Assembly (NCBI RefSeq): GCF_000934725.1
Contig: NZ_JYNS01000006.1
Location: forward strand, 124,001-188,000
Direction of reading: 5' to 3'
DNA length: 64,000 nt
Source of the DNA: Methyloterricola oryzae
GTDB taxonomy: Bacteria > Pseudomonadota > Gammaproteobacteria > Methylococcales > Methylococcaceae
Of the stretch, positions 5,348 through 33,388 are shown piece by piece. A model generated the notes under the pieces. That model was given only the letters and a program-made list of their open reading frames with translations. It did no database searches and was not told the origin of the DNA. Position 1 is the stretch's first letter. Each line of letters starts with the position of its first letter. Position numbers and translations under genes: made by a program.

Positions 5348-7603
5348 ATGGGCGCTCAGCCTGACAAGAAATCGACCTTACAAATCTGCGGCTTGGCATG
5401 CTTGTTCATCGGCAGCTTTATCTCAATTGACGCCCATTGTACAGCTTCTGAGGCGCATACCGCACCCGCGTCACGGTCTTACTTACCGCGCATATGGCCA
5501 AACACCGACCTTCAGAATCTGCTGCGCGGCTACAACTACATTTTGAAAACAAGCGCAGCGGGCAAAGTCGAGTCGCTGATTGTTTCTGGAGAAAACGGCT
5601 CGGGTCTTGGCAACCGCATTGCTGATGCATCGCTTGTTAGCAAGACACCCGTCGCGTTGCCGTTCGGTGATGGCTCAGACCAGCCCTCCACAAAGTTCAG
5701 CGAGAGCCTTCAAGGCCAGGACGCCATAGATGCATTGGGTGCGCAATTGCCAGCCATCGCATCGGAACATGGAATGTCTACCGATCGCCTTCGTGAGATT
5801 CTTCTCAATGACACAACGGCATGGCTCGACACCAGTGGCCGTTTGTATTACGTGGAAGCACCGCCTGCAGCAGAACCAGGAGAGCAGACCGAGGGCAGCG
5901 GTAACAACGTCATCGCTCCACCTGTCGCTGCGTTAGTCGAACTCGGCAAAACCTTCCAACTCCACAGCAAGTCCGGCGCGAGCAAGATCATCTACCTGGA
6001 TTTCAACGGCCAGACTGTTACAGGCACAGGCTGGAATAACTCCTACTCACTGCCGACCATCAGCGCACCGGCATTCGACACCGGGGGAAATGCTTCGGTT
6101 TTTGACGACGCCGAACTCACGCGAATACAAAACATCTGGAGCCGGGTGGCCGAAGACTACGCGCCTTTCGACATCGACGTGACCACGGAGGAACCGTCAG
6201 CAGATGCCTTGGATCGCTCTTCTTCCTCCGATCAGGCATACGGTACCCGAGCCATCATCACAAAAAGGCTTCTTCCCTGTAGCTGTGGCGGTATCGCATA
6301 CGTCGGTATCTTTGATTACACCACCAGTTACTACAAGCCGGCCTGGATCTTCTACGACATGCTGGGCGGCGGAGACGAAAAGTTCGTGGCCGAAGCGATT
6401 TCCCATGAAGTCGGCCACAACCTGGGACTCAACCACGATGGAGGAACCGGGACCGGTTACTATCAGGGCCATGGTGCGGGTGCGACAGGATGGGCACCCA
6501 TCATGGGCGTAGGTTATTACAGAGAACTCGTGCAGTGGAGCCAGGGCGAATACCCCGGGGCCAACAACCACGAAGACGACATCAATATTCTGCAGAGCCA
6601 TGGTGCCGCCATTCGAGCCGACGATGCGGGCGACGCCCCCGGATCAGCCGTTGCGCTGGCTGGCAGCTTGAGTGGTGGAACATTGGTCGCCAGCCAGGCA
6701 GGCGTTATAGAGCGTCGTGGTGATCTCGACTATTACGTATTTACAAGCGCGGGCGGACAAGTCAATTTCGACGTGGCTCCCGCCGCACTCGGCCCCAATC
6801 TCGATGTGAGCCTTGCCTTATTCAGCGCCGAAGGTTCGCTTGTCGCAGCTGCCAATCCCACAGACACTCTCGACGCATCCCTCTCGGCCAACTTGACTCC
6901 AGGCACCTTCTACCTTCGGGTGAGCGGAGCCGGCAAAGCAGCGAACGGCACGGACTACGGCTATACGGACTACGGCAGCCTGGGGCAGTATCAAATTTCA
7001 GGTCGTCTCGCCCAAGGAGCCACACAAGCGCCTGCCGCCCTTGCGACAGCATCGGCATCTAATGGCATAGCCCCCCTGGAAGTGCAGTTTTCGGGTACTG
7101 ACTCCTCAGACGATGGCACAATCACCCGCTATTCCTGGGATTTCGGCGATGGCAGTTCTTCTACCGAGCCAAATCCGACGCATACCTTTACCTTCGCAGG
7201 AACATTTGCCGTCAAACTTACGGTGACTGACGACGCCGGGCTAACCAGCGAAGCCTCGGTGTCTGTCAGCGTCGCTGCGCAAGGCGCGCCCACCGCTTCG
7301 CGCGTTCTAGAGATGATGATTGAATTGAGCCAGAAACTGAAGAAGGCACGAGCAAAGGTTCAACTCCAAGTGACCAATGGCCTTGGTCAGCCGATTCCCG
7401 GCACCCTGGTGAAAGGCAAATGGAGAGGCTTGGTAAAAGGCAAAGTCAAGGGCATCACAGACGACTCCGGAATTGTCACCCTTTCGAGCCCGGCGACCAA
7501 AAAGAAAGGAACCTTTACTTTCTCCGTCAGTGGACTTTCGGGCCACGGATACACCTATGATCCTTCGCTCAATTCACAAACCATAATCAGTCTGACGCGC
7601 TGA
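5348..7603 (+). CDS. Secreted metzincin metalloprotease with PPC-like, PKD and Ig-like domains
   Basis: A 751-residue exported protein. An N-terminal signal-like hydrophobic segment covers about residues 12-30. The catalytic domain has the extended zinc motif H-E-V-G-H-N-L-G-L-N-H (near residue 354) and a Met-turn A-P-I-M-G-V, as in metzincins. After it come a pre-peptidase C-terminal-like beta domain (D-Y-Y-V-F and G-T-F-Y-L-R-V-S), a PKD domain (Y-S-W-D-F-G-D-G) at roughly 560-645, and a C-terminal lysine-rich Ig-like domain. A C-S-C-G motif just upstream of the catalytic helix is unusual and could form a disulfide. The substrate is unknown; secretion through Sec to the cell surface or medium is inferred. 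The gene stands alone, about 400 bases before the kdp region. Confidence 0.85.
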   Translation: MGAQPDKKSTLQICGLACLFIGSFISIDAHCTASEAHTAPASRSYLPRIWPNTDLQNLLRGYNYILKTSAAGKVESLIVSGENGSGLGNRIADASLVSKTPVALPFGDGSDQPSTKFSESLQGQDAIDALGAQLPAIASEHGMSTDRLREILLNDTTAWLDTSGRLYYVEAPPAAEPGEQTEGSGNNVIAPPVAALVELGKTFQLHSKSGASKIIYLDFNGQTVTGTGWNNSYSLPTISAPAFDTGGNASVFDDAELTRIQNIWSRVAEDYAPFDIDVTTEEPSADALDRSSSSDQAYGTRAIITKRLLPCSCGGIAYVGIFDYTTSYYKPAWIFYDMLGGGDEKFVAEAISHEVGHNLGLNHDGGTGTGYYQGHGAGATGWAPIMGVGYYRELVQWSQGEYPGANNHEDDINILQSHGAAIRADDAGDAPGSAVALAGSLSGGTLVASQAGVIERRGDLDYYVFTSAGGQVNFDVAPAALGPNLDVSLALFSAEGSLVAAANPTDTLDASLSANLTPGTFYLRVSGAGKAANGTDYGYTDYGSLGQYQISGRLAQGATQAPAALATASASNGIAPLEVQFSGTDSSDDGTITRYSWDFGDGSSSTEPNPTHTFTFAGTFAVKLTVTDDAGLTSEASVSVSVAAQGAPTASRVLEMMIELSQKLKKARAKVQLQVTNGLGQPIPGTLVKGKWRGLVKGKVKGITDDSGIVTLSSPATKKKGTFTFSVSGLSGHGYTYDPSLNSQTIISLTR

Positions 7604-7611
7604 CACATGCC

Positions 7612-7672
7612 GCGCCGGGTATCCGAGCTGCTGGCAGTTTCGGAAGCCAGCATCAGTCAAGATGCCCGGCGC
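7612..7672 (+). other. Nested hairpin downstream of protease gene
   Basis: The outer arms GCGCCGGGTAT and ATGCCCGGCGC pair over 11 positions with one G-T wobble. Inside them TGCTGGC and GCCAGCA pair over seven positions around a 10-base loop. It begins nine bases after the protease stop codon. There is no proper T-tract, so it may stabilise the 3' end of the mRNA or be a weak terminator. Confidence 0.5.
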
Positions 7673-7897
7673 AACCTGTTTTCAAGGTCCAGTTTTGACG
7701 CAGCGGGCGGCGCCACTTCTCTTTAACGAATATACCCCTCACATTATCAAGCCGCTCCCACCCCATGCCGCTGAAAAACACGGGCGATTGGAACGCGCGG
7801 CTGACAGCCAGTCGTCATCCTGACTGGAGCCATACCAACCTGGTCTGCAGAGGCTCTGCCGCCTGACCAGGCATTATCCCTCTCCCACATCTGATCC

Positions 7898-20208: not shown

Positions 20209-20344
20209 ATGCCCGGCGACATGTCGCGATGTCCACGGCCAAGCAGCCGGTCCGCGCCCGCTTGCCCCCGTCTATAACAAGCCCAGCAATAACCCTTTAA
20301 TCAATGTGGCGAAATGGTGCGAAACCGTCCCGACCACTGCATTT

Positions 20345-20360
20345 TGTTGAAAACAAGACA
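20345..20360. promoter_or_regulatory. NifA upstream activator site (TGT-N10-ACA)
   Basis: The sequence is TGTTGAAAACAAGACA, again with exact TGT-N10-ACA spacing. It is 67 bases upstream of the -24 element that precedes iscS, a typical position for a NifA site. Confidence 0.82.
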
Positions 20361-20426
20361 AACAGGACAATCCAGAAACAAGGAAAACCTCACGCTATTT
20401 CAGTACCTTAACGACTTGGCGCACCA

Positions 20427-20442
20427 TGGCCCGAGACTTGCT
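20427..20442 (+). promoter_or_regulatory. Sigma-54 promoter of the isc-nif operon
   Basis: TGGCCCGAGACTTGCT has GG and GC at the correct -24/-12 spacing. The expected transcription start is near 20454, giving a leader of about 67 bases before the iscS ATG. With the NifA site 67 bases upstream it marks a nitrogen-fixation-controlled isc operon. Confidence 0.85.
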
Positions 20443-20520
20443 TCGTTAGGATCAACACGCCCAGGACCCCGTTGTACGGCCTGCGGCAACGACCGAATGC
20501 AAAACTCGGAGAGCATGCTC

Positions 20521-21735
20521 ATGAAGTTACCGGTTTACCTCGATTATTCCGCCACCACCCCCGTGGACCCGCGCGTCGCCGAAAAGATGATCCCGTTTCT
20601 CACCGAGAACTTCGGCAACCCGGCCAGCCGCTCCCACGCATTCGGGTGGACCGCCGAGGAAGCCGTGGAGAAGGCGCGCGAGGACGTGGCGAAGCTGGTC
20701 AACGCCGACCCTAAAGAGATCGTCTGGACCTCCGGGGCCACCGAATCCGACAACCTGGCCATCAAGGGCGCCGCCGAGTTCTATGCGACCAAGGGCAAGC
20801 ACCTGATCACCCTCAAGACCGAGCACAAGGCCGTACTGGACCCCATGCGCGAACTGGAGGCCCAGGGCTTCGAGGTCACCTACCTGGACCCGCTCCCCAA
20901 TGGCCTGCTGGACATGGCGGCGCTGGAAGCGGCGATCCGCCCGGACACCTCGCTGATCTCCATCATGCACGTCAACAACGAGATCGGCGTGGTGCAGGAC
21001 ATCATGGCCATCGGGCAGCTTTGCCGCTCCAAGGGCATCATTTTCCATGTGGACGCCGCCCAGTCCACCGGCAAGGTGGAGATCGACCTGCAGAAACTGC
21101 CGGTGGATCTCATGTCCTTCTCCGCCCACAAGACCTATGGCCCGAAGGGCATCGGCGCGCTTTATATCCGCCGCAAGCCGCGTGTCCGCATCAAGGCGCA
21201 GATGCACGGCGGTGGCCACGAGCGCGGTATGCGCTCGGGCACCCTGGCCACCCATCAGATCGTCGGTATGGGCGAAGCCTTCCGCATCGCCCGCGAGGAG
21301 ATGGCCGAGGAGTCCGCGCGCATCCGCAAGCTGCGCGACAAGCTGCTGGCCGGCGTCCAGAACATGGAGGAGATCTATGTCAATGGCGACCTGGAACAGC
21401 GCGTGCCGCACAACCTGAATGTCAGCTTCAACTACGTGGAAGGCGAGTCCCTGATGATGGCCATCAAGGATCTGGCGGTATCCAGCGGTTCTGCCTGCAC
21501 GTCCTCCAGCCTGGAACCTTCCTACGTGCTGCGCGCCTTGGGCCGCAGCGACGAACTGGCGCACAGCTCCATCCGATTCAGCATTGGCCGCTTCACCACC
21601 GAGGAAGATGTCGACTTCGCCGTCTCCCTGATCAAGACCGCGGTGGAGCGCCTGCGTGACATTTCCCCCTTGTGGGAAATGTTCAAGGACGGCATCGACA
21701 TCAATTCGGTCCAGTGGGCCGAGGCCGCGCACTGA
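20521..21735 (+). CDS. iscS: Cysteine desulfurase IscS (NifA-controlled copy)
   Basis: A pyridoxal-phosphate cysteine desulfurase that supplies sulfur to IscU. The 404-residue product is full length. It has L-D-Y-S-A-T-T-P near the N-terminus, the cofactor lysine in [12 protein letters not shown] and the active cysteine loop [12 protein letters not shown] 20521 is chosen: GGAGAG ends seven bases before it and the family begins M-K-L-P-x-Y-L-D. Open sequence further upstream contains the promoter and is not coding. By sequence it is IscS-like rather than NifS-like, although the promoter is of nif type. Confidence 0.96.
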
Positions 21736-21774
21736 GCACTTCGACCATTCCGCCACCACCCCAGGAGAACACCC

Positions 21775-22194
21775 ATGGCATATAACGAGAAGGTCATTGA
21801 CCACTACGAGAACCCCCGCAATGTCGGCTCCTTCGACAAGGAAGAGGATGGCGTGGGCACCGGCATCGTCGGCGCGCCGGCCTGCGGCGACGTGATGAAG
21901 CTGCAGATCAAGATCAACGACGAGGGCGTCATCGAGGACGCCAAGTTCAAGACCTACGGCTGCGGCTCCGCCATCGCCTCCAGCTCCCTGGTCACCGAGT
22001 GGGTGAAGGGCAAGACGGTGGAAGAGGCACTCGCCATCAAGAACACCGAGATTGCCGAAGCCCTGGCCCTGCCGCCGGTGAAGATCCACTGCTCGGTGCT
22101 CGCGGAAGACGCCATCAAGGCGGCGGTTTCCGATTACAAGGCCAAATCCAACGTCGCCGAGGAAGGCTACGACATCTGCAAGAGCGCGGCATAA
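21775..22194 (+). CDS. iscU: Fe-S cluster scaffold IscU
   Basis: The scaffold on which [2Fe-2S] and [4Fe-4S] clusters are built. 139 residues. Three ligand cysteines are in A-P-A-C-G-D, Y-G-C-G-S and K-I-H-C-S. The L-P-P-V-K motif recognised by the chaperone HscA is intact. It follows iscS by 39 bases. It lacks the extra middle and C-terminal domains of NifU, so it is the house-keeping type, used here in a nif-controlled operon. Confidence 0.96.
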
Positions 22195-22208
22195 CCCGAG
22201 GAATCATC

Positions 22209-22625
22209 ATGACCACCACCGCCCAAGACATCACCCCCGTCCAGGATCTCACGCCGCCGGGCCCGGCCGTGTTCTTCACCAGCAACGCGGCGCACAAGGT
22301 GAGCGAGCTCATCGCCGAGGAAGGCAATCCGGAGCTCAAGCTCCGGGTCTATGTCTCCGGCGGCGGCTGCTCGGGTTTCCAGTACGGCTTCTCCTTCGAG
22401 GAGGTGGCCGGTGAAGACGACACCAGCGTGATCACCGACGGCGTGACCCTGCTGGTCGATCCCACCAGCCTGCAATACCTGGGTGGCGCGGAGATCGACT
22501 ACCAGGAAGGGCTGGAAGGCTCGCGTTTCGTCATCAAGAACCCCAACGCCAGCTCCACCTGCAGCTGCGGCAGCTCCTTCTCCATGGAAGGCAGCGGCTC
22601 GTCCTGTTCCACCGCCAGCAACTGA
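22209..22625 (+). CDS. erpA: A-type Fe-S carrier, ErpA-like
   Basis: A 138-residue A-type carrier. The three conserved cysteines are in [12 protein letters not shown] and S-T-C-S-C-G-S-S-F. The F-Q-Y-G-F-x-F form is typical of ErpA rather than IscA. It has about 25 extra N-terminal residues (Thr/Pro-rich) and a Ser-rich tail with an extra cysteine. It sits where standard isc operons have only iscA, and a true iscA follows, so this operon encodes two carriers. Confidence 0.88.
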
Positions 22626-22635
22626 GGAGGTCACG

Positions 22636-22959
22636 ATGGCAGTTACCCTGACCGAAAAAGCCGCCACACAAGTACAGAAGCACCTGAGCGCCCGCGGCGC
22701 CGGTTACGGGCTGCGCTTGGCGGTCAAGACCTCGGGCTGCTCGGGTCTTGCCTACACCCTGGAGTTCGTGGACGAGCCGGCGCCGGAGGACCAGACCTTC
22801 GAAAGCTTCGGCGTCACGGTGCTGGTGGACCCCAAGAGCCTAGCCTACCTGGAAGGCACCGAACTGGACTTCGTGCGGGAAGGCCTCAACGAGGGCTTCA
22901 AGTTCAACAATCCCAACGTCAAGAATGAGTGCGGGTGCGGCGAGAGCTTCAACGTCTAG
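22636..22959 (+). CDS. iscA: Fe-S cluster assembly carrier IscA
   Basis: A 107-residue A-type carrier that receives clusters from IscU and passes them to targets. Ligand cysteines are in T-S-G-C-S-G-L-A-Y and [10 protein letters not shown] clean AGGAGG lies six bases before ATG 22636. It is followed by hscB after an 11-base gap. Confidence 0.94.
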
Positions 22960-22970
22960 GATCGGTACCC

Positions 22971-23503
22971 ATGACCTCGGCTGCCAGCGCCAACTTCTTC
23001 GAGCTGTTCCAGATGCCCGCGACCTTCCGGCTGGACCTGGGCCAGCTGGACCGTCACTACCTGGAACTACAGAGCCGGGTGCATCCGGACAAGGCGGCGC
23101 ACCTGAGCGACACCGAAAAGCGGCTGTCGCTGCAATGGGCAACCCTGGCCAATGAGGCCTACCAGACCCTGAAAAAGCCCCTGGAGCGGGCCCGCTACCT
23201 GCTCAAGATCAACGGGGTGGATACCCGCGAAGAGGACAACACTGCCATGCCTACGGAATTCCTGCTGGAACAGATCGAATGGCGCGAGGAAATCCAGGAG
23301 GCCGTGACCCTGCGCAATACCCACGCCATGGACAGACTGGCGGCGCGCCTGAAATCGGAGACGAACCAGTTGTTCGACTCCCTGGGCACGCTGCTTGACG
23401 ACGAACGGCAACATCCGGCTGCGGCGGTCATCGTCCGCCAGTTGGCTTTTCTGGAAAAACTCGGCCGCGATCTCAATGATGCGATGGCCGCACTGGAGGA
23501 CTG

Positions 23504-23504
<1 letters not shown>
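22971..23504 (+). CDS. hscB: Co-chaperone HscB
   Basis: The J-domain partner of HscA that brings IscU to the chaperone. About 177 residues: J domain with the H-P-D triad in R-V-H-P-D-K at the N-terminal third and a helical C-terminal domain that binds IscU. ATG 22971 is chosen because it begins the family match (F-F-E-L-F-Q-M-P); the longer frame overlaps the end of iscA. The stop overlaps the hscA start (ATGA). Confidence 0.94.
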
Positions 23505-25369
<1,865 letters not shown>

Positions 25370-25395: not shown

Positions 25396-25746
25396 ATGCC
25401 GAAAATTACCGTTCTTCCCAACGCCGAACTCTGCCCCGAAGGCGCGGTCATCGACGCCAAGTACGGCCAGAGCATCTGCGACGCCCTGCTGCATGCCGGC
25501 ATCGAAATCGAACACGCCTGCGAGCACTCCTGCGCCTGCTCCACCTGCCATGTGGTCGTGCGCGAAGGCTATGAATCCCTCAACGATCCCGACGAGGACG
25601 AGGAAGACATGTTGGACCGCGCCTGGGGCTTGCAGGCCACTTCGCGCCTGTCCTGCCAGGCCGTGCTCAGCAAGGCCGACGTCACCGTCGAGATTCCGCG
25701 CTACAGCCTCAACCTGGCGAAGGAAGGGGCGACCAAGAAGGCCTGA
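25396..25746 (+). CDS. fdx: Isc-type [2Fe-2S] ferredoxin
   Basis: An adrenodoxin-type ferredoxin of 116 residues that provides electrons for Fe-S assembly. Ligands are in C-E-H-S-C-A-C-S-T-C (CX5CX2C) and R-L-S-C-Q-A. The C-terminus is slightly longer and lysine-rich compared with E. coli Fdx. It is followed by nifV three bases after its stop, which ties the isc genes directly to nitrogen fixation. No iscX gene follows. Confidence 0.95.
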   Translation: MPKITVLPNAELCPEGAVIDAKYGQSICDALLHAGIEIEHACEHSCACSTCHVVVREGYESLNDPDEDEEDMLDRAWGLQATSRLSCQAVLSKADVTVEIPRYSLNLAKEGATKKA

Positions 25747-25749
25747 GCC

Positions 25750-26895
25750 ATGCATAGCACCATCACCATCAACGACACCACCCTGCGCGACGGCGAACAG
25801 ACCGCCGGGGTCGCCTTCACCGCCGAGGAAAAGCTGGCCATCGCCCGCGCCCTCTCGGACGCCGGCGTGCCGGAGATGGAGGTAGGCATACCGGTGATGG
25901 GCGCGGAGGAACAGGAGGTGATCGCCGCCATCGCAGCACTCAAACTTCCGTCCCGGCTCATGGTCTGGGGCCGCATGTGCGAGGCCGACCTGAGGGCGGC
26001 AACGGGATGCGGGGCGGACCTGGTCAACCTGTCGGTGCCGGTGTCCGATATCCATCTTCAGCACAAGGTGGGCCGGCCGCGCGCCTGGGTGCTGGAGACC
26101 GTCACTCGCTTCGTCCAGGCGGCTCTGGAAACCGGCATGGATGTCTGCGTCGGCACCGAGGACGCTTCCCGCGCCGACATGGATTTCCTGCTGCAGGTGG
26201 CGGAAACCGCTCAGCGGGCGGGCGCGCGGCGCCTGCGCTTCGCCGACACCCTGGGCATCCTCGACCCCGTGGCTACCTTCGAGCGCATCCAGAAGCTGGC
26301 GCAGGCGGTGGACATCGAAATCGAAATGCACGCCCACAACGATTTCGGACTGGCCACGGCCAACACCCTGATGGCGGTGCGGGCCGGTGCGACCCATGTG
26401 AACACCACGGTCAACGGGCTCGGCGAGCGCGCCGGCAATGCCGCCATCGAGGAAACGGTGATGGCCCTGCATCAGCTTTACGGCCGCGAGACCGGCATCG
26501 CCCCCAGCCGCTTCCCCGCCATCTCGGAACTGGTGGCCCGGGCCTCGGGCCGTCCCATCGCGCCCAACAAGAGCATCGTCGGCGATGCGGTGTTCACCCA
26601 CGAGGCCGGCATCCACGTGGACGGCCTGCTCAAGAACGTCCTCAACTACCAGGGCGTGGACCCGCAACAACTGGGCCGCGAGCACCGGCTGGTGCTGGGC
26701 AAGCACTCCGGTTCCCACGCGGTGGTGCGCAGCTTCAAGGCCTTGGGCATCGAAATCAGCGAAGCGGACGCCGCCCGCGTGCTGACACGCATCCGGCGCC
26801 ACGCCAGCCAGAACAAGCGCCCGCCCAGCGACCAGGAGCTGCGGCTGTTTTACAGCGATGCGGCCACCCAGGACCGACCCGGCCTGTTCGGCTGA
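25750..26895 (+). CDS. nifV: Homocitrate synthase NifV
   Basis: Condenses acetyl-CoA with 2-oxoglutarate to homocitrate, the organic ligand of the nitrogenase FeMo-cofactor. 381 residues. The start [16 protein letters not shown] is characteristic of NifV, and H-A-H-N-D-F-G-L-A holds the metal-binding histidines. [10 protein letters not shown] is also conserved. This gene is the clearest evidence that the surrounding operon works for nitrogenase. Confidence 0.95.
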
Positions 26896-26928: not shown

Positions 26929-27267
26929 ATGAATCCAATCCTGCAACGCATTCAGAGCTTCTCCGCCGCCGAGGAATTCCTCGACTTCTTCAAGATCGAG
27001 TACGAGCCCAGCGTCGTCCACGTGAATCGCCTGCATATCCTCAAGCGCTTCAACCAGTATTTGTCGCGCAATCCGATCCCGGAGGACGCCGATGAAACCA
27101 GCGCCTTCGAGACCTGCCGTCAGTATCTGACCCAGGCCCATGACGACTTCGTCAAGTCCACCGCCGCCGACGAGAAAGTCTTCAAGGTCTTCCAGGATCA
27201 AAGCAGCAAGAGCATTTCACTGGACAGCATGAAGATCAGCCTCTCCACCCGGGGACAGAAGGCCTGA
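26929..27267 (+). CDS. nifW: Nitrogenase stabilising/protective protein NifW
   Basis: A 112-residue NifW-family protein. Typical features are F[10 protein letters not shown] near the start, Y-E-P[14 protein letters not shown] and the F-K-V-F-Q-D-Q segment. NifW is thought to protect or help mature the MoFe protein in the presence of oxygen. It follows nifV by 33 bases and is cotranscribed. Confidence 0.92.
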
Positions 27268-27335: not shown

Positions 27336-27662
27336 ATGCCAAAACCCAGCAAGCACGTGTTCGTCTGCACCCAAAGCCGCCCGCCGGGCCATCCCCGCGG
27401 TTCCTGCGGCCAGCAGGGCAGCACGGCGGTGTTCCAGACCTTCATGCAGCAGTTCGACCAGGGACAGCTTTACGGCCAGTTTGCCCTGACGGGGAGCGGG
27501 TGCCTGGGCACCTGCGATTTCGGGCCCACGGTGCTGGTCTACCCCGAAGGCGTGATGTACACCAAGGTGAAGCCGGAGGACGTGCCGGTGATCATCGAGC
27601 AGCACCTCAAGGGCGGTGAGCCGGTGGAAAGCCTGCTGGCGCCGGCCGCGGTGTGGAGCTAA
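27336..27662 (+). CDS. Thioredoxin-like [2Fe-2S] ferredoxin
   Basis: A 108-residue member of the thioredoxin-fold [2Fe-2S] family (like the A. vinelandii/C. pasteurianum type). Four cysteines are spaced as expected: H-V-F-V-C-T, then G-S-C-G-Q-Q-G-S, and G-C-L-G-T-C-D-F-G-P. The V-Y-P-E-G-V-M-Y segment is also typical. Such ferredoxins are often found in nif operons, and a role in nitrogenase maturation or electron supply is likely. An AGGAG precedes ATG 27336. Confidence 0.9.
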   Translation: MPKPSKHVFVCTQSRPPGHPRGSCGQQGSTAVFQTFMQQFDQGQLYGQFALTGSGCLGTCDFGPTVLVYPEGVMYTKVKPEDVPVIIEQHLKGGEPVESLLAPAAVWS

Positions 27663-27673
27663 GCAGGTCCGCC

Positions 27674-28144
27674 ATGGAATCCACCCGCGCCTTCTACGCC
27701 GGCGAGTTGCCGCCCAAGACCAGCGCCTTGCTGGATGAGGCCATGAGCCTATACGGCGACACGGAGCGGGCCGAGTCCCTGCTGATGCAGGCGCACCGGG
27801 AGGACCCGGACGCCCTGCCGGTGTATTTCTCCATGTACAAGTTCTATTTCTACAAGGGACGCCTGCAGGACGCGGAGCGGGCGGTACGCCAGGCCCTGGA
27901 AACCGCCGCCCGGCTCGGCGGCTTTTCGCCGGATTTCCGCGACCTGCGCCCGGAAACCACCAACTGGACCCATCACGACGGGCCGGCGCATTTCTACCTG
28001 TTCTCCCTCAAGGCCTTATCCTTCATCAGGCTGCGCCAGGGCGACAAGGCTGAATGCGAGGAACTGTTGGGCAAATTGAACGAACTGGACAAATCCGACA
28101 GCGTCGGCGGCTCCGTCATCGGAGCGTTCGCTGCCGGGGTATGA
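27674..28144 (+). CDS. Nif-operon TPR-like helical protein
   Basis: A 156-residue, mostly helical, soluble protein. Residues about 15-80 read as tandem helix pairs, with A-L-P-V-Y-F-S-M-Y-K-F-Y-F-Y-K-G-R-L-Q-D-A-E-R-A-style spacing of one TPR unit. A W-T-H-H-D-G-P-A-H-F segment in the middle is distinctive. ATG 27674 is preferred to an upstream GTG because it is preceded by GCAGG and avoids overlap with the ferredoxin. TPR proteins mediate protein-protein contacts; a partner within the nif set is likely but unknown. Confidence 0.75.
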   Translation: MESTRAFYAGELPPKTSALLDEAMSLYGDTERAESLLMQAHREDPDALPVYFSMYKFYFYKGRLQDAERAVRQALETAARLGGFSPDFRDLRPETTNWTHHDGPAHFYLFSLKALSFIRLRQGDKAECEELLGKLNELDKSDSVGGSVIGAFAAGV

Positions 28145-28241
28145 GTTCTTTATAGAACACGGGGCATCGTACCGGAACCGGCCGTCAAGCCGGCCACGAG
28201 CCCCGAACTTAAACCTAGAAACCACCAGGAGTAAGCTAACT

Positions 28242-28535
28242 ATGTCGACCTTAACCATCCTCCCATCCGGCAAGTCCATCAACGCGGAAGTGGGAAAAAG
28301 CCTGCTGGAACTCATCCAGGCGGCTGGAGTAGAAATCGAGAACAATGGAAAAGGCAGCGACCACATTTTCGTACAGACCGGGCGCAAGAGTGTTTCCAAG
28401 ATCGCGGCTGAAGAGAACGCCAAACTGGACACCATGGTGGGCGTAGGCTCCAAGTCCCGCTTGGCCAGCCACGCCACTGTGACCGGTGAAGAGGATATTA
28501 CGGTCGAAGTGCTGGGCTTTTCCTCCGGCCTGTGA
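28242..28535 (+). CDS. Ferredoxin-fold protein without cluster cysteines
   Basis: A 97-residue homologue of the nif-associated plant-type [2Fe-2S] ferredoxins. The frame is well conserved (T-I-L-P-S-G-K-S-I, H-I-F-V-Q-T-G-R-K, E-N-A-K-L-D-T-M-V-G-V-G-S-K-S-R-L-A and E-V-L-G-F-S-S-G-L). The protein has no cysteine at all. Where the family has CX4CX2CH it reads N-N-G-K-G-S-D-H, several residues shorter, and the final R-L-A-C-Q-A is R-L-A-S-H-A. I checked this codon by codon. The rest of the fold is intact and the ORF has an AGGAG start, so it looks functional rather than decaying. It cannot hold a normal [2Fe-2S] cluster. Confidence 0.88.
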   Translation: MSTLTILPSGKSINAEVGKSLLELIQAAGVEIENNGKGSDHIFVQTGRKSVSKIAAEENAKLDTMVGVGSKSRLASHATVTGEEDITVEVLGFSSGL

Positions 28536-28574
28536 GTCCAAGACCGGTACAGCATTTCAATTTTTCGAAATTGC

Positions 28575-28601
28575 GGGGCCGGACAACTCCGGCCCCGTTT
28601 T
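28575..28601 (+). terminator. Rho-independent terminator ending the isc-nif operon
   Basis: A perfect nine-pair stem, GGGGCCGGA with TCCGGCCCC, a CAAC loop and then GTTTT. It lies between the cysteine-less ferredoxin gene and grxD. The T-run is short, so readthrough into grxD-bolA is possible. Confidence 0.8.
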
Positions 28602-28618: not shown

Positions 28619-28957
28619 ATGAGCAGCATCGAAGACACCATTCGCGACCAGATCGCCAACCATCCCGTACTGCTGTACATGAAAGGCGTGCCCGACATGC
28701 CGCAATGCGGCTTTTCCGCGAAGGCCGTGGCCTGCCTGCAGTCCACCGGCGTACCCTTCGCCTATGTGAACATCCTGGCCGCGCCCCAGATCCGCGAAAA
28801 GCTCCCGAGCGTTTCGCAGTGGCCGACGTTCCCGCAGCTCTTCGTGGGGGGCGAACTGGTGGGCGGCAGCGACATCGTCGACGAAATCCACCGCAAGGGT
28901 GAATTGAAGCCCATGCTGGACACCGCGGTGGCGGCAGCCACCCCGGCGGCAGAGTAA
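28619..28957 (+). CDS. grxD: Monothiol glutaredoxin GrxD
   Basis: A 112-residue CGFS-type glutaredoxin. The active-site motif is M-P-Q-C-G-F-S, followed by the G-x-x-F-x-x-x-N-I segment and W-P-T-F-P-Q-L-F-V-G-G-E-L-V-G-G-S-D. CGFS glutaredoxins bind a shared [2Fe-2S] cluster with a BolA partner and pass Fe-S clusters on. A BolA gene follows directly. The pair lies just after the terminator of the isc-nif operon. Confidence 0.95.
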   Translation: MSSIEDTIRDQIANHPVLLYMKGVPDMPQCGFSAKAVACLQSTGVPFAYVNILAAPQIREKLPSVSQWPTFPQLFVGGELVGGSDIVDEIHRKGELKPMLDTAVAAATPAAE

Positions 28958-28961
28958 ACCC

Positions 28962-29216
28962 ATGGAAATCGCCGAAGTCCGCCAAATGATCGAGGCCGGC
29001 CTGCCCGGCTGCGACCTGACCGTCGAAGGCGAGGGCTGCAGCTTTTCCATCGTGGTGGTCAGTGATGCCTTCGATGGCCTCTCCCCCGTCAAGCGCCAGC
29101 AGAAAGTCCTGTCCACGGTCAGCGAGCCCCTTTCCACGGGCGCCCTGCACGCCATCAGCATGAAGGTCTACACGCCCGCCGAGTGGGCCCGGGAACGGCC
29201 GGCGACCGTCGGCTGA
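28962..29216 (+). CDS. BolA/IbaG-family protein
   Basis: An 84-residue BolA-family protein. The R-Q-M-I-E-A-G-L-P-G-C start, F-S-I-V-V-V-S-D-A-F and P-L-S-T-G-A-L-H-A-I-S-M-K-V-Y-T-P-A-E-W segments are standard. BolA proteins pair with CGFS glutaredoxins, with a conserved histidine (here in A-L-H-A-I) contributing to the shared cluster. It starts four bases after grxD. Confidence 0.92.
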   Translation: MEIAEVRQMIEAGLPGCDLTVEGEGCSFSIVVVSDAFDGLSPVKRQQKVLSTVSEPLSTGALHAISMKVYTPAEWARERPATVG

Positions 29217-33148: not shown

Positions 33149-33388
33149 ATGCACATCACCACCATCCTGGTGAACGACATCCCCAAGGTCGCCGTGCGAC
33201 CCAACGACCGCAAGGCATTGAGCCGCTTCCTTCGCAACGGCGGCAAATATCTCAGCGGGGGCGTGCCGGACGCCACCATCACCCACCGCGACGCCGACGA
33301 GACCGAGGCCGCGCGCTGGCAGTCGGCCCTGGCCCTGCACCTGGCCTGGGGCGGCAACGAGGAAGATTTCTTCGGGGTGCCGCTTTAG
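33149..33388 (+). CDS. Hypothetical protein in NifA-type operon
   Basis: A 79-residue protein starting M-H-I-T-T-I-L-V-N-D-I-P-K-V-A-V. It ends A-W-G-G-N-E-E-D-F-F-G-V-P-L. GGGAGGAAG precedes the ATG, an excellent ribosome binding site. No family recognised, no cysteines. Confidence 0.65.
   Translation: MHITTILVNDIPKVAVRPNDRKALSRFLRNGGKYLSGGVPDATITHRDADETEAARWQSALALHLAWGGNEEDFFGVPL

Follow-up and report, generated by a model that had tools for sequence, protein, structure and literature searches.

How can a ferredoxin gene stand among nitrogen-fixation (nif) genes with an undamaged reading frame and encode not one cysteine with which to hold an iron-sulfur (Fe-S) cluster? The question is raised by a protein encoded at 28242-28535 on the plus strand of a 64,000-nucleotide stretch of Methyloterricola oryzae DNA (contig NZ_JYNS01000006.1, positions 124,001 to 188,000; hereafter the window). 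Diazotrophs carry [2Fe-2S] ferredoxins with an unclear job among their nif genes, FdC of Rhodobacter capsulatus being an example (excerpted text of PMC10936413). We hold it somewhat better than an even bet, with a probability of about 0.55, that the window protein is a ferredoxin-fold protein unable to hold a [2Fe-2S] cluster, kept as a protein-binding module that serves, by docking or as an adaptor, in Fe-S assembly for the nif system or in the handling of nitrogenase. An initial annotation of this DNA had proposed a selected, cluster-free role, and purifying selection, a second independent loss across four genomes, the retention of 27 of 28 conserved positions and synteny all speak for it.

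The gene is an intact open reading frame (ORF) of 97 codons, running from ATG to TGA and encoding 97 residues with zero cysteines, in agreement with the first description of a gene that has lost all cluster cysteines and is otherwise undamaged. Residues 34-40, the remnant of the old cluster-binding loop (28341..28361, plus strand), read N-N-G-K-G-S-D, and since the nearest orthologues have 102 residues, the loop is 5 residues shorter than theirs. Asp40 occupies the position of the third ligand (C3) and Ser76 that of the fourth (C4), the pair Ser76-His77 (28467..28472, plus strand) replacing the fourth ligand cysteine and a conserved glutamine. Of the first two ligands (C1 and C2), one falls inside the deletion and the other has become Gly36 or Lys37, depending on the alignment. 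The shortened loop and the serine had been read correctly from the start; the motif given with them, CX4CX2C, is to be amended to CX5CX2C, the spacing of the family. At least five base changes at three cysteine codons and an in-frame deletion in an open frame are needed for this loss, which is therefore no sequencing slip (the count is the smallest codon distance, with the C1 and C3 codons taken from locus L066 and any cysteine codon accepted for C4). Judged by these residues, the window protein would bind no [2Fe-2S] cluster, and electron transfer by way of a [2Fe-2S] cluster held by cysteines is closed to the cluster-free forms.

General profile searches place the protein poorly. Pfam returned no family at E values up to 1, Fer2 (PF00111) included, and the NCBIfam model for ferredoxins of the iron-sulfur cluster (ISC) type, TIGR02007, gave 41.2 bits, below its cut-off of 132.1. 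The protein is the syntenic orthologue of a family of nif-linked [2Fe-2S] ferredoxins (profile A1) characterized by CX5CX2C and a fourth cysteine, with members in Methylococcus, Methylocystis, Methylocapsa, Nitrospirillum, Novosphingobium, Burkholderiales and others. It scores 142 bits against a family profile of 20 rows, itself included, and is 49-75% identical to the 19 other rows. In the host genome the gene is the sole close copy, two other ferredoxins there being 31-33% identical. A paralogue with four cysteines (L002, G000:C6:39905-40189) reached 76 bits against the family profile, compared with 78-104 for the counterparts listed in other family genomes. The family orthologue of genome G010 is identical to that of Methylococcus capsulatus Texas.

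How unusual the loss is was assessed by a motif census, in which hits above 110 bits were taken as family members and lower hits (the paralogue and ISC ferredoxins) were excluded and used as a control. The 1990 genomes searched, with repeats between searches counted, were mostly drawn samples, and the resulting proportion is therefore no rate for nature. CX5CX2C and the fourth cysteine were present in 117 of 132 distinct members (one of them, L268, partial), and 15 members departed from the pattern. All loop cysteines are gone in five of these, namely the window protein, with none of the four, and four Methylocystis-type proteins (L009, L172, L207 and L208), whose loop reads LLPDFDAxxxDLSxW, with Phe, Leu and Trp at the former C1, C2 and C3, and whose single cysteine is the fourth. 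Seven further members lack C2 and carry an extra CxC (L010, L014, L020 and L181 to L184), which may represent a rewired cluster site. These C2-less members come from Methylocapsa and relatives, their extra cysteine standing two residues before another, as in ECTCETAKKYDPC; each of L181, L183 and L184 is a second copy in its genome. L155 retains three cysteines, and in the alignment its loop (HKCGDACH) is gapped in the columns where that of the window protein is; its genome (G630) is listed as 100% complete, with nifH present. The spacing in L259 and L262 is CX5CX3C. The control sequences were 44 distinct ferredoxin-like ORFs of lower score from the fetched loci, many of them from Pseudomonas, and all 44 keep CX5CX2C and the fourth cysteine under a slightly looser motif pattern than that applied to the family. 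In this sample the family, unlike the control ferredoxins, thus tolerates change at the cluster site. The 38 family genomes searched include no other member of the window's genus, and viral contigs gave no relative of the gene at a tblastn E value of 1e-3.

The loss of the loop cysteines happened twice, separately, in the window lineage and in Methylocystis-type bacteria. The tree behind this result comprised 94 rows, with five cysteine-poor and eight otherwise altered proteins (L259 and L262 were found later), and 86 columns, from which the loop and the fourth-ligand position were left out; the columns are few and many forks stay open. The window protein stands beside two four-cysteine proteins (support 100/84), inside larger four-cysteine groups (98/97), on an end branch of 0.11 compared with 0.067 and 0.29 in its two sisters. 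The four Methylocystis-type proteins group together (99/96) among other four-cysteine proteins. Parsimony requires two changes, and forcing the five cysteine-poor proteins into one clade made the tree 48 log-likelihood units worse, so that a single shared loss was ruled out by the approximately unbiased (AU) test (p = 0.0007). Genome G910 has a nifB gene about 2.5 kb and a nifA gene 5.1 kb away from its cysteine-poor copy.

Strongly conserved positions were defined as columns conserved at 90% or more in 77 canonical members outside the loop and C4, which gave 28 columns. The number kept by canonical members ranges from 24 to 28 (median 28), and the window protein and the four Methylocystis-type proteins keep 27 each. 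The sole column missing in all five is the glutamine beside C4, which is likewise absent from five of the eight altered members (L155 and L181 to L184) and present in L010, L014 and L020. In FdC of R. capsulatus, Gln82 follows the ligand Cys81 and is one of only two side chains near enough to hydrogen-bond the cluster or its thiolates (PMC12223475, in excerpt); if the 'C-Q' after the fourth ligand is read in the same way, the family glutamine would be the counterpart of Gln82. Considering that the sole conserved loss is this glutamine, both lineages gave up cluster-serving residues and little else that is conserved. The conserved residues retained by the cluster-free forms are situated, in other ferredoxins, near the side used for partner docking.

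Selection was examined with a GY94 codon model, run by our own script on the topology of the 94-row tree. Of 90 family rows, 17 relatives of the window protein entered one test and 14 rows the other. Outside the loop, the ratio of nonsynonymous to synonymous rates (omega) on the window branch was 0.042 against a background of 0.065, the difference being insignificant (p = 0.40) and omega = 1 being rejected (p = 2e-5); with all codons it was 0.062 (omega = 1 rejected, p = 1e-5). The Methylocystis crown is the cleaner test because its branches follow the loss, if this occurred once on the stem, and its omega outside the loop was 0.116, with omega = 1 again rejected (p = 3e-8). Constraint therefore persists in this crown, in a loosened form. 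Random decay among homologues, named in the initial annotation as the refuting outcome, was not seen, though the cysteine-poor Methylocystis clade is relaxed relative to the background. Decay by chance, as in a pseudogene, was rejected as a candidate, since codon models, tree lengths and conserved positions do not support it, with the restriction that the window branch alone cannot date the loss. That the gene is selected and cluster-free is well supported.

Structure prediction, which the initial annotation had recommended, points to a retained ferredoxin fold in both cysteine-poor lineages. AlphaFold modelled the window protein with a predicted local distance difference test (pLDDT) score of 78 and a predicted template modelling (pTM) score of 0.69, and a Methylocystis cysteine-poor protein with 79 and 0.71, the ferredoxin elements being kept in each. 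The window model adopts a beta-grasp ferredoxin fold, and its top match was FdC (9i2a; Z 13.7, root-mean-square deviation (rmsd) 1.9, 89 aligned residues), tied with Escherichia coli Fdx (1i7h; Z 12.9, rmsd 2.7, 93 aligned). For the Methylocystis model the corresponding values were Z 13.9, rmsd 1.9 and 92 aligned for FdC, and Z 12.8, rmsd 2.2 and 94 aligned for 1i7h. Given that both models are built on the same 18 sequences and that many ferredoxins follow close behind, they speak for the fold and not for a function.

Taken together, the cluster-free forms probably perform a job that depends on their surface rather than on electron transfer, and by analogy with the plant protein mFDX-like we infer that they serve nif Fe-S assembly or nitrogenase by docking or as an adaptor. 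Docking would take place through the constrained surface (around EN..LD..VGVGSKSRLA and GRK..SK), on a partner common to the cluster-bearing orthologues. This partner would most likely be the adjacent Fe-S assembly machinery (cysteine desulfurase/IscU/HscBA or Grx4-BolA), or else nitrogenase components, and the window protein may occupy or clamp it without electron passage, in the manner of the cluster-free ferredoxin of plant complex I. The docking reading predicts that docking is the indispensable part of the function in the lineages that keep the cluster. A bolder extension, which we advance tentatively and think doubtful as a whole, holds that the indispensable role of the entire family is not electron transfer, that the cluster is optional and has been lost or rewired several times in diazotrophs, and that the forms without a cluster constitutively clamp a partner in nif Fe-S assembly or at nitrogenase.

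Several points weigh against a docking or adaptor role. The window loss is known from one genome only, so that omega on its branch covers periods both preceding and following the loss, and synonymous sites there are almost saturated (synonymous divergence, dS, about 1.5 to the nearest relative by NG86). The Methylocystis crown is relaxed about threefold (0.116 against a background of 0.040, p = 0.02; with all codons 0.167 against 0.043, p = 0.0009), and being looser than the background it has lost some function. Two of the four Methylocystis-type genomes (G910 and G913) also hold a four-cysteine copy, beside which the cysteine-poor one may be spare. A search for nifH gave no match in three of the four cysteine-poor Methylocystis-type genomes, where contigs are short, and incomplete assembly is perhaps the reason. 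The two structural models share their 18 input sequences. In addition, the low-potential ferredoxin FdN can replace FdC, and the excerpted part of PMC12223475 names reduction potential, and not architecture, as the main factor.

Some of these points feed the rival which survives best, a recent loss of function in which a dispensable ferredoxin is on its way out and still intact for lack of time. The relaxed crown, the four-cysteine copies in two of the four Methylocystis-type genomes, the other ferredoxins of the window genome and the restriction of the window form to one genome would all fit it. We nevertheless regard it as unlikely, since many changes have accumulated at the ligand site and yet all strongly conserved outside positions but one were retained, the frame is undamaged, omega is far below 1 in both lineages and the Methylocystis form outlasted the divergence of four genomes.

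A second rival makes the protein a nitrogenase protector of the FeSII kind that has discarded its redox switch and binds nitrogenase without cluster oxidation. Roles of this sort have been proposed for other nif ferredoxins (excerpt of PMC11301756), the cysteine-free gene lies three genes after that for NifW, and FeSII chains are among the structural matches of both models (Z 10.5, rmsd 2.2, 89 aligned for the window protein; Z 10.9, rmsd 1.9, 88 aligned for the Methylocystis protein). The fold match is not specific, however, because many other ferredoxins reach the same Z, and the family profile matches FeSII weakly (E 0.0015-0.0046) compared with E 7e-16 for ISC ferredoxin. Such a protector is possible, less supported than the docking or adaptor role, and on balance quite improbable.

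Still less probable is a metalloprotein that binds something else where the cluster once sat, such as a mononuclear metal held by Asp40/His41 or other residues. All of A1 has His41, and the plant complex I protein mFDX-like holds a single metal ion in the cluster's place (PMC10069907, in part). This histidine is no new ligand, however, because it is also invariant in four-cysteine members; no cysteine remains in the window protein, and Phe, Leu and Trp at C1, C2 and C3 of the Methylocystis proteins suggest that the pocket was filled rather than refitted for metal binding. An assembly or sequencing artefact, to which the single draft genome might point, is scarcely credible in view of a coherent in-frame change within an otherwise conserved gene and a parallel loss in four other assemblies.

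The features given here from HscA to the BolA-like protein, together with the ribosome-binding-site-like AGGAG and the hairpin described below, lie on the plus strand. Upstream, the genes at 20314-23504 were named by eye as IscS, IscU, IscA and HscB and are followed by the chaperone HscA (23504..25369; NCBIfam TIGR01991, 899 bits), an ISC-type [2Fe-2S] ferredoxin with its cysteines present (25396..25746; TIGR02007, 175 bits), the homocitrate synthase NifV (25750..26895; TIGR02660, 544 bits) and NifW (26929..27267; PF03206). Next come a thioredoxin-like [2Fe-2S] protein labelled FeSI (27336..27662; PF01257; 131 bits against the Azotobacter ferredoxin model NF041613, below its cut-off of 195) and a TPR protein (27653..28144; PF14559). 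The cluster-free nif-linked ferredoxin homologue itself (28242..28535, 97 aa), identified by its ORF, orthologues and tree, is succeeded by a Grx4-type monothiol glutaredoxin (28619..28957; TIGR00365, 135 bits) and a BolA-like protein (28962..29216; PF01722). The order HscA-Fdx-NifV-NifW-FeSI-TPR, position of the cysteine-free gene, Grx, BolA is common to seven of seven examined loci of the same taxonomic family, Methylococcaceae (L191 to L195, L004 and L005), and with NifV and NifW upstream the label of a nif-operon ferredoxin is a fair one. The nifH of the window genome lies on another contig (464 bits). At locus L191, contig 2 of genome G004 carries nifH besides the ferredoxin gene.

The gene has its own ribosome-binding-site-like AGGAG (28227..28231) 10 nt before the ATG, as had been claimed. 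Between it and Grx4 stands an 11-bp GC-rich hairpin (28573-28598) with a T run at 28598-28601, together spanning 28573..28601, and the stretch is more stably folded than most of its shuffled versions (z -2.98, with 3 of 200 equally good). The hairpin of the terminator claimed earlier is thus present, but the run holds only four T, and the hairpin is missing from the output of a terminator scan that requires five T in eight bases; it is possibly a terminator or a processing site.

Plasmids yielded 14 records, of which the best was the four-cysteine orthologue of Methylococcus sp. EFPC2 (71.7%), followed by two from Paraburkholderia (54-56%) and 11 at 31-33%, like ISC ferredoxin. The orthologous gene set of strain EFPC2 is located on the 89.6-kb plasmid NZ_CP070492.1. 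Further downstream in the window, 33149-33388 encodes a 79-aa protein without a Pfam match, which belongs to a nif-linked family of small proteins that we leave unnamed; of 67 loci, some of which share a genome, 20 have a homologue no more than 5.5 kb from the ferredoxin. At locus L208, a DegT/DnrJ-type aminotransferase (6547-7737, minus strand) is directly upstream of the ferredoxin, and 54 of 67 loci, some again sharing a genome, have a homologue at most 5.5 kb away from the ferredoxin.

A cluster lost twice independently with the fold and the conserved surface kept separates docking from electron transfer. If a cluster-free form complements, the family is no electron carrier in the usual sense, and if the cluster is indeed optional, these natural 'redox-dead' versions would show the real job of nif-linked [2Fe-2S] ferredoxins. 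That would bear on moving nitrogenase into other organisms, where the role of each accessory protein must be known. A cysteine-free nif ferredoxin was found in no paper among the matches listed in open PMC text. Cluster-free ferredoxins are known elsewhere, in plant complex I, so that the kind of protein is already known.

Among known systems, the closest is the nif-linked A1 family itself, to which the window protein is tied by orthology, synteny and 27 of 28 positions and from which it differs by the absence of the four cysteines and a loop five residues shorter. FdC of R. capsulatus (FdxC, ferredoxin IV; PDB 9I2A) is likewise nitrogen-fixation-linked, single-domain and of similar size. Its cluster ligands are C38, C43, C46 and C81 with the spacing CX4CX2C (PMC12223475, in part), as opposed to CX5CX2C in the window family, and its pattern of CX4CX2C with a fifth cysteine two residues after C4 is not found in the window protein. 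The sequence profile match to FdC (E 6e-8) is weaker than that to ISC ferredoxin (E 7e-16), and FdC is best regarded as a relative by fold whose orthology is not proven. Its function is reported as undetermined, and a deletion strain has a nitrogen-fixation deficit, in the excerpted text of PMC10936413. The ISC ferredoxins (E. coli Fdx 1I7H and Pseudomonas putida FdxB 3AH7) have the same fold and are the best sequence match among solved structures; the window protein is cysteine-free and falls below the TIGR02007 cut-off, and the true ISC ferredoxin is separate in the same gene row.

FeSII of Azotobacter (Shethna protein II) is an adrenodoxin-type, nitrogenase-tied ferredoxin, and unlike the window protein it holds a cluster, is dimeric and has a larger loop, as the excerpt of PMC11301756 describes it. 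The nearest parallel in kind is plant mFDX-like, or C1-FDX, a cluster-free ferredoxin fold that arose by ligand loss and acts in assembly: according to the part of PMC10069907 consulted, it has lost one cysteine, binds no cluster and is needed for the assembly of complex I and of supercomplexes. The structural search with the Methylocystis model also brought up plant complex I chains (7aqq_O; Z 10.6, rmsd 2.9, 99 aligned). The plant protein is mitochondrial and lost one cysteine where the window protein lost four, and the likeness between them lies in ligand loss and fold.
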